Below are positions 4,837 to 11,191 of a stretch of DNA of 64,000 bases, in pieces. Source of the stretch: Candidatus Woesearchaeota archaeon (GTDB taxonomy: Archaea; Nanobdellota; Nanobdellia; Woesearchaeales; JAFGLG01); assembly GCA_016928155.1 (NCBI GenBank), contig JAFGLG010000005.1, forward strand, positions 128,451-192,450. The letters are read 5' to 3'. The translations under genes were made by a program, and so were the position numbers. How positions within the stretch are numbered: the first letter of the stretch is position 1; every line of letters starts with the position of its first letter. The notes beneath the pieces were generated by a model. That model was not told the DNA's origin. It saw only the letters and a list, made by a program, of their open reading frames with translations, and did not search any database.

Positions 4837-8022
<3,186 letters not shown>

Positions 8023-9082: not shown

Positions 9083-11191
9083 ATGTGCGGCATCATAGGA
9101 TATTTCGGGCCAGAGCTGGATAAAGAGAAGATAAGAGCAGCTTTTGCCCTGATAGAATCACGAGGGAAAGATGCATATGGATACAGCAATGGCTCTACAG
9201 TCGAGATCAAGAAGCATATAGACAGACTTTCGCTGAAGGATACAACAAATTTCTTCTTACACAAACTCCATTCCATTGTCGGAAGCAGACCACAGCCATT
9301 CAAAGGCAAAGGGATCTTCATCGCGAACTGCGAGATATACAACTGGGAAGAACTGGACCAGAAATATGATCTCGGTGCAGGGAATGATGCAGAGCTGATG
9401 TTCAGGCTTATTGAGGAAAAAGGGACAGATGCACTTGATGAGTTTGATGGTGTCTATGCTTTCGCCTACTGGCGCGACGGAAAAGTGATCCTCGCCCGGG
9501 ACATAATAGGAGAAAGACCAATATGGGTGTCAAGGACAACATTTGCCTTCAGCTCAGAGAAGAAAGTGCTGGAGGCAATGGGATTAGATGATGCAGAGGA
9601 GCTGAATCCTCGCAAGATACTGACCTATAAAATCAAGACCAAGGAGAAGGGATATGTCGAGAGAGAATTCTTCAAGACAGAACCACAGGTCAAGGATAAT
9701 CTACAGGGAATAAAGAAGAGATTGAATGGGCTGCTCACAAATGCAATATCAAAAAGGGTGCCTGACACAAGGATCGGGGTGCTGTTCTCAGGGGGGATTG
9801 ATTCAACACTCATTGCATTCATCCTAAAGGAATTAAGGGTAGATTTCACATGTTATGCAGCGGGGCTTGTGCAGGAAGGGCTGAAAGAGGCAGAAGACCT
9901 TGTACATGCAGAGAAGATAGCAAAAGAATTAGGATTCCCGCTGAAGTTGATAACAATAGGCCTGGATGAGGTTGAAGCATACCTGACAAAGATCGTGCCG
10001 CTCATCGAAGACAGCAATGTGGTCAAGGTAGGAGTTGCACTGCCATTCTATCTGGCATGCGAAGAAGCGCAGAAAGACGGAGTCAGAGTGATATTCTCTG
10101 GCCTGGGAAGCGAGGAGATATTTGCAGGATACCAAAGACATGAGCAGAGCCAGGATATAAACAAGGAATGCCTGCACGGACTGCTGAAGATGTATGAGAG
10201 AGACCTATACAGGGATGATGTCATCACAATGCACCACAATATTGAACTGAGACTTCCATTCCTCGACAAGAAATTGGTTGGGTATGCACTGCAGATACCT
10301 GCAAAGTACAAAATAAAGGATGATGTGAAGAAATGGATAATACGCGAAGTGGCTAAGGATCTTGGAATGAAAGCTGAGTTTGCCATGCGGAAGAAGAAAG
10401 CAGCACAGTACGGCAGCAATTTTGACAAGGCAATACAGAAATTAGCAGCAAAGCAGAAGAAAAGCAAATCAGGATATCTGAGGGATTTCTATCCGACGCA
10501 TAATCTCAAAATAGGTGTGCTTTTCAGCTCAGGCAAGGACAGCACTTATGCAATGCACATCATGATGAAGCAGAACTATGAGATAAGCTGCCTGATCTCC
10601 CTCAAGAGCAAGAATCCTGATTCCTATATGTTCCATACACCGAATATCGACATGGTCAAACTCCAGTCAGAAGCACTCGGGATACCATTGATACTTGAAG
10701 AAACACAAGGAGAGAAGGAGACAGAGCTCGAGGACCTTGAAAAAGCGATCATAAGAGCAAAAACAGAATATAGTATAGATGCAATATGCACAGGGGCCCT
10801 GTTTTCCAATTACCAAAGAGACAGGATTGAGAAGATATGCGACAGGCTCGGGCTAAAGATGTTCTCGCCGCTCTGGCACAAGGACCAGGAGCTTGAGATG
10901 AGGGAGATAATCAATGAGGGATTCAAGTTCATGATGAGCAGCGTCGCGGCAGAAGGGCTGGATGCAAGCTGGCTCGGTCGGGAGATAACCTTGACTGACG
11001 TCGACAAACTAGTTCAGCTGCACAGAAGGATCGGCCTGAATGTCTGCGGCGAAGGCGGGGAGTTCGAATCGCTCGTTGTCGACGGGCCGATATTCAGGAA
11101 AAGGATCATCGTCAAGGAATCTGAAGTCCTGACTGACGGATCAAACGCAAAGATCATAATAAAACAGGCCGGACTCATGGAAAAGACCTAA
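9083..11191 (+). CDS. Fusion: class II glutamine amidotransferase + asparagine synthetase + diphthine-ammonia ligase (Dph6)
   Basis: Residues 1-200 form an Ntn-type glutamine amidotransferase: MCGIIGYFG with nucleophile Cys2, NCEIYN (the usual oxyanion glycine is Cys here) and GNDAELMF. Residues 220-465 form the asparagine-synthetase domain with the PP-loop SGGIDS at 236-241 and SGLGSEEIFAGY. Residues 476-702 are a second, different PP-loop enzyme: SSGKDS at 482-487, GALFSNYQRDRIE, SPLWHKDQ, and GEGGEFESLVVDGP, the Dph6 signature. Dph6 amidates diphthine on elongation factor 2 using ATP and ammonia. The fusion suggests that glutamine-derived ammonia is delivered to diphthamide synthesis, which is inference. 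The reading frame is continuous across both enzymes, with no stop. Confidence 0.93.
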   Translation: MCGIIGYFGPELDKEKIRAAFALIESRGKDAYGYSNGSTVEIKKHIDRLSLKDTTNFFLHKLHSIVGSRPQPFKGKGIFIANCEIYNWEELDQKYDLGAGNDAELMFRLIEEKGTDALDEFDGVYAFAYWRDGKVILARDIIGERPIWVSRTTFAFSSEKKVLEAMGLDDAEELNPRKILTYKIKTKEKGYVEREFFKTEPQVKDNLQGIKKRLNGLLTNAISKRVPDTRIGVLFSGGIDSTLIAFILKELRVDFTCYAAGLVQEGLKEAEDLVHAEKIAKELGFPLKLITIGLDEVEAYLTKIVPLIEDSNVVKVGVALPFYLACEEAQKDGVRVIFSGLGSEEIFAGYQRHEQSQDINKECLHGLLKMYERDLYRDDVITMHHNIELRLPFLDKKLVGYALQIPAKYKIKDDVKKWIIREVAKDLGMKAEFAMRKKKAAQYGSNFDKAIQKLAAKQKKSKSGYLRDFYPTHNLKIGVLFSSGKDSTYAMHIMMKQNYEISCLISLKSKNPDSYMFHTPNIDMVKLQSEALGIPLILEETQGEKETELEDLEKAIIRAKTEYSIDAICTGALFSNYQRDRIEKICDRLGLKMFSPLWHKDQELEMREIINEGFKFMMSSVAAEGLDASWLGREITLTDVDKLVQLHRRIGLNVCGEGGEFESLVVDGPIFRKRIIVKESEVLTDGSNAKIIIKQAGLMEKT

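Follow-up and report, generated by a model that had tools for sequence, protein, structure and literature searches.

In the window analysed here (the whole 64,000-nucleotide stretch of archaeal DNA), one gene joins a glutaminase (class II GAT) domain, a PP-loop domain resembling that of asparagine synthetase B (AsnB) and the diphthine-ammonia ligase Dph6, which raises the question of what an asparagine synthetase-like module does in a diphthamide enzyme. The first-pass annotation had described a single frame with a glutaminase, an AsnB-type PP-loop and a complete Dph6, and the ORF, Pfam and NCBIfam analyses confirm this description (Table 1).

Table 1. Coordinates (window positions) and diagnostic residues of the fusion gene and its domains.
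Feature	Position	Strand	Details
GAT / AsnB-like PP-loop / Dph6 fusion gene	9083..11191	+	702 aa; ORF, Pfam, NCBIfam, AlphaFold2 model
Class II GAT (Ntn) domain	9083..9682	+	residues 1-200; Cys2, R27, N82, C83, E84, D102; Leu62-His63 vs. Arg-Leu of AsnB
AsnB-like PP-loop domain	9683..10492	+	residues 201-470; SGGIDS, SGLGSEEIFAGY (Leu341 at ASNS Glu364 site), RKKKAAQYGS
Dph6 domain	10502..11188	+	residues 474-702; SSGKDS, GEGGEFES; TIGR03679 above cut-off

Architecture of the fusion protein and its host genome

The ORF starts with ATG and contains zero internal stops. Pfam places GATase_7 at residues 71-164, Asn_synthase from residue 214 in two stretches, and Diphthami_syn_2 at residues 476-696 (246 bits). 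The archaeal Dph6 model (Dph6_archaeal, TIGR03679) scores 284.7 bits against a cut-off of 197.3, and the asparagine synthetase model (asn_synth_AEB, TIGR01536) falls just short of its cut-off (263.6 vs. 267.1 bits). Two PP-loops are complete, SGGIDS (236-241) and SSGKDS (482-487). This architecture is real, widespread and already published: de Crecy-Lagard et al. (2012; PMC3541065) described GAT-II / AsnB PP-loop / DUF71 proteins in Methanohalophilus, Methanosalsum and Nanosalinarum, and the 702-aa protein carries the same three domains, GAT-II, Asn_synthase and DUF71, in a single frame and in the same order. The 2012 paper suggested that the GAT domain feeds both ligase domains, and a reviewer there questioned the role of the AsnB-like PP-loop.

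The AlphaFold2 model of the fusion (mean pLDDT 91.4, pTM 0.89) has three ordered domains. Residues 2-477 superpose on E. coli AsnB (1ct9; Z 39.9, 2.4 Å, 441 residues), so the GAT and AsnB-like domains are predicted to dock as they do in AsnB. Residues 474-702 match archaeal Dph6 in fold and motifs (Pyrococcus PF0828 and PH1257, Z 32.5 and 31.6; 1.3 Å over 221 residues for Z 32.5), although the solved proteins are stand-alone and have no N-terminal module. The model of a relative without GAT has the same two folds (pLDDT 85.9, pTM 0.81).

Free-standing AsnB and Dph6, which the first-pass annotation had named as evidence that would speak against its reading, were not found in a search of the whole host genome (99.7% complete); its sole Asn_synthase protein and its sole Dph6 are one and the same fusion gene. 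The pathway context of Dph6 is present, with Dph5, Dph2 (two ORFs) and an EF-2 whose modifiable histidine is His608 in a DAIHRGPAQ loop. The genome also encodes AsnA (TIGR00669, 416.5 bits vs. a cut-off of 292.8) directly adjoining AsnRS, and asparagine therefore need not come from the fusion.

Two observations concern other genes of this genome. Dph2 (contig C2, locus L152:472-1478, + strand) consists of two overlapping ORFs joined at AAGGAGGAATGGTGATG, one of 91 aa with SCYGGC and a 248-aa frame with the remaining two Cys. The arrangement resembles a true split gene with translational coupling; a sequencing error is a less likely cause of the frameshift because a Shine-Dalgarno-like AAGGAGG lies upstream of the second start. 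Dph2 ORFs with the C-terminal part alone also occur at two other loci (L086 and L069). Separately, a 342-aa AsnRS-like catalytic core without an anticodon-binding domain is encoded at C2:46027-47004 (- strand; L151:513-1538, - strand). The possibility that it is an archaeal asparagine synthetase A was rejected, as it scores far under the cut-off of that model and the true AsnA was found separately; it is also under the cut-off for AsnRS.

The AsnB-like subfamily

The first-pass annotation was right that the asparagine synthetase PP-loop is intact, and it missed that other active-site residues of that enzyme are altered. With E. coli AsnB and human ASNS, residues 2-477 have in common the fold, the docking, the SGGxDS PP-loop (SGGIDS) and the equivalent of Lys449 (K438). 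In contrast, the glutamate of the SGEGSDE loop (Glu348 in E. coli, Glu364 in human) aligns with Leu341 of the fusion. In human ASNS, exchanging this glutamate for Ala or Gln (E364A, E364Q) abolishes activity with ammonia, and D367A has the same effect (PMC6748925). None of the 113 members of the clade of the fusion has Glu at the site (Leu in 80, otherwise I, S, T, A, V, M, N, Q or F), whereas each of the 11 E-type AsnBs of the tree does.

The GAT domain shows a similar mixture. The nucleophile and the residues equivalent to Asn74, Glu76 and Asp98 are present (Cys2, N82, E84 and D102), and Leu62 and Cys83 replace Arg49 (R48 in human ASNS), which binds the glutamine carboxylate, and Gly75. Among the aligned fused GATs, Leu occupies the Arg site in 76 of 76, followed by His in 73 of 76, and the Cys83 position is Cys in 68 of 76; the E-type and surface-glycan AsnBs have Arg-Leu and Gly at the same positions (40 of 40). 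These replacements in the GAT are themselves conserved, which suggests a pocket that has been remodelled and has not simply degenerated. Judged by the alignments and the predicted structure, the glutamine-binding and acyl-substrate pockets are altered and both PP-loops are intact.

In a domain tree (built by a fast method from a single domain, its inner nodes weak), the E-type AsnBs (SGEG[SA]DE) form the outgroup, and the Dph6-linked AsnB-like proteins, mostly fused, form one clade with an archaeal Q-type group (SGQGADE) as its sister. By these sequence criteria the AsnB half of the fusion is a distinct subfamily, a separation that is new here; the front half, taken for AsnB in the 2012 paper, belongs to a subfamily that lacks the synthetase Glu and the GAT Arg. 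It is probably misnamed as an asparagine synthetase. The Q-type proteins of Methanocaldococcus, Thermococcus and Bathyarchaeota have the KKAAQYGS motif and the loss of Glu in common with the Dph6-linked clade, yet they are mostly stand-alone, only one (L219) adjoining Dph6; since this sister clade has lost the Glu without being linked to Dph6, loss of the Glu alone does not specify a new function. Beta-lactam and carbapenam synthetases have the AsnB fold (structure match) with a different substrate and have no Dph6 link; in them the same Glu is replaced, by a residue other than that of the fusion.

Q-type AsnB-like loci with Gln at the essential Glu site (L206, L208, L209, L204 and others) were seen in Methanocaldococcus, Thermococcus, Methanobrevibacter and Bathyarchaeota; as human E364Q is inactive, the asparagine synthetase annotation of these archaeal proteins may be wrong too. 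One further candidate, a 750-aa AsnB of a surveyed genome (G262), was set aside as E-type and without Dph6.

Distribution and linkage to Dph6

We surveyed 279 genomes of the phylum and found Dph6 in 262. The AsnB-like domain profile gave 207 matches at E ≤ 1 × 10−20; among the best 150 of these 207, the frames were at least 590 aa long in 82, 430-560 aa in 24 and at most 380 aa in 44. Four forms occur among the fetched loci: GAT + AsnB-like + Dph6, AsnB-like + Dph6 without GAT, GAT + AsnB-like alone, and AsnB-like alone. Beyond the phylum survey, a scan of genome contigs recovered fused forms in Methanolobus, Methanohalophilus, Diapherotrites, Altiarchaeota and Nanohaloarchaea, which include lineages of the 2012 proteins, and showed AsnB-like and Dph6 as overlapping separate genes in Methanococcoides. 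Gene fissions are nested within the fused Dph6 tree; from this topology the fusion looks ancestral in the clade, with GAT losses and gene splits several times each.

Where the genes are split and both coordinates are listed, they are adjacent in 6 of 23 genomes, four times co-directional (gaps of 6-41 bp) and twice divergent; a naive estimate that ignores phylogeny puts the chance of this at about 2 × 10−12. The AsnB-like protein and Dph6 are also associated in their presence (188/5 vs. 74/12, Fisher p = 6 × 10−4, phylogeny ignored). Recurrent neighbours of the fusions in relatives are Dph2, EF1A and a DRG-type GTPase, and Dph5 adjoins in one genome (G023). By fusion and adjacency in these genomes, the AsnB-like module follows Dph6 in a long-term linkage.

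Weighing against such a partnership, five genomes (G107, G128, G165, G244 and G277) carry an AsnB-like protein and Dph5 without a detected Dph6, and many surveyed genomes have Dph6 without an AsnB-like protein. At one locus (L175:16-3150, + strand), a single 1045-aa ORF combines a DRG-type GTPase (MMR_HSR1 + Xtn) with GAT-AsnB-like-Dph6.

Of the 75 fused GATs that could be aligned, 73 retain Cys2; the GAT region lacks the Cys in four relatives, namely two from Methanococcoides (L184, L215), one from Methanosarcinales (L181) and one from Methanohalophilus (L185), the last with a degenerate GAT N-terminus, unlike the fusion studied here. The alignments thus place the loss of GAT, or of its Cys, several times independently of the AsnB-like ATP site. 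Residue E388 corresponds to human Glu414 of the glutamine pocket. Glu stands at this position in 98% of the 81 proteins whose GAT is live, in 42% of the 24 that lack a GAT and in none of the 4 whose GAT is dead. In contrast, SGGxDS, R352, R377, D378, K410, K417, R421 and AQY are at least 95% conserved both with and without GAT (the sequences are related, and none of these counts is independent). These patterns are the strongest evidence here that the GAT, in proteins that have one, acts together with the AsnB-like domain, and that the ATP chemistry of the latter is required also in proteins that lack a GAT. A ligase activity of this domain, beyond its glutaminase, seems from the sequences to be under selection.

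Possible roles of the AsnB-like module

Taking the alignments and the model together, we give about even weight to the reading that the only Dph6 of this genome carries at its N-terminus a dedicated partner, a candidate AsnB-like ligase that is not an asparagine synthetase. The Dph6 domain would adenylate the diphthine carboxylate on His608 of EF-2 and then amidate it; a GAT that has its Cys would release ammonia into the AsnB-like domain; and the latter may adenylate a carboxylate other than aspartate, probably one tied to EF-2 or to diphthamide maturation.

We favour this ligase partner over a pure channel from glutamine to Dph6, which we regard as a serious but distinctly less probable alternative. 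Under that proposal, made in 2012 (PMC3541065) and re-derived independently by the first-pass annotation, hence not new, GAT ammonia reaches the Dph6 PP-loop by way of the AsnB-like domain or around it, making diphthamide synthesis glutamine-dependent, with the AsnB-like domain mainly a conduit or scaffold. The logic of the fusion, the retention of Cys2, the tight three-domain model and the E388 pattern, a hint that GATs with the Cys are functional, all agree with it, and glutamine-dependent Dph6 activity is possible; it is not the simplest reading, as the GAT faces the AsnB-like domain just as in AsnB, and solo Dph6 relatives occur in many genomes. Moreover, many fused and split proteins have no GAT, and the GAT of Methanococcoides, among others, is dead, yet the AsnB-like ATP site is kept; this argues against a conduit, since a conduit would not need ATP.

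It is unlikely that the AsnB-like domain is a catalytically silent scaffold for Dph6 that senses ATP or binds EF-2. The many residues found in place of the catalytic Glu and the persistence of the domain without GAT would fit such a role, but the near-invariance of the PP-loop and of the other ATP-site residues listed above goes beyond what a scaffold needs. Less probable still is a bifunctional chimera that makes both asparagine and diphthamide, as the first-pass annotation had also suggested: the near miss of TIGR01536, the AsnB fold and the status of the fusion as the only AsnB-type protein of its genome speak for it, and against it stand the Leu at the essential Glu site, never Glu among 113 relatives, the AsnA gene next to AsnRS and the E-type AsnB that coexists with the fusion in three genomes (G053, G199 and G038). 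We rejected asparagine supply as the main role of the fusion on the same grounds, the lost Glu and the presence of AsnA. The weakest account, a junction created by assembly or sequencing or else a neutral fusion whose parts are not functionally coupled, is highly improbable: fissions are common, so that covalent linkage is not essential, but adjacency recurs in split genomes. Dozens of independent assemblies of the phylum, and a cultured Methanolobus (L176) as well, share the architecture, which rules out the artefact that the first-pass annotation had named as a risk.

Beyond the ligase-partner reading lies a bolder version of it, which we hold only tentatively, in which the AsnB-like module would be a new amidoligase family, an ancestral archaeal partner of Dph6 performing a second ligase step in EF-2 maturation, with ASNSD1 as a possible eukaryotic counterpart. 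Eukaryotic ASNSD1 and yeast YML096W have similar motif changes, with an SGIGADE-like loop and Leu-His at the GAT Arg site. No link between ASNSD1 and diphthamide was found in the literature searched; if the bolder version holds, an orphan human protein would be linked to diphthamide.

What is new relative to the 2012 description is the AsnB-like subfamily, the AsnA of the host genome, the tracking of Dph6 by the module and an ATP site that outlasts the GAT; the module is a candidate extra factor in diphthamide synthesis. Such fusions should not be taken for AsnB when the metabolism of reduced archaea is reconstructed; a 2023 paper on nanohaloarchaea (PMC10266531), for example, lists an AsnB, possibly such a fusion, among the few amino-acid enzymes.

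Elsewhere in the window, GyrB (4852-8022, + strand) contains an intein (PF14890, about residues 433-853).
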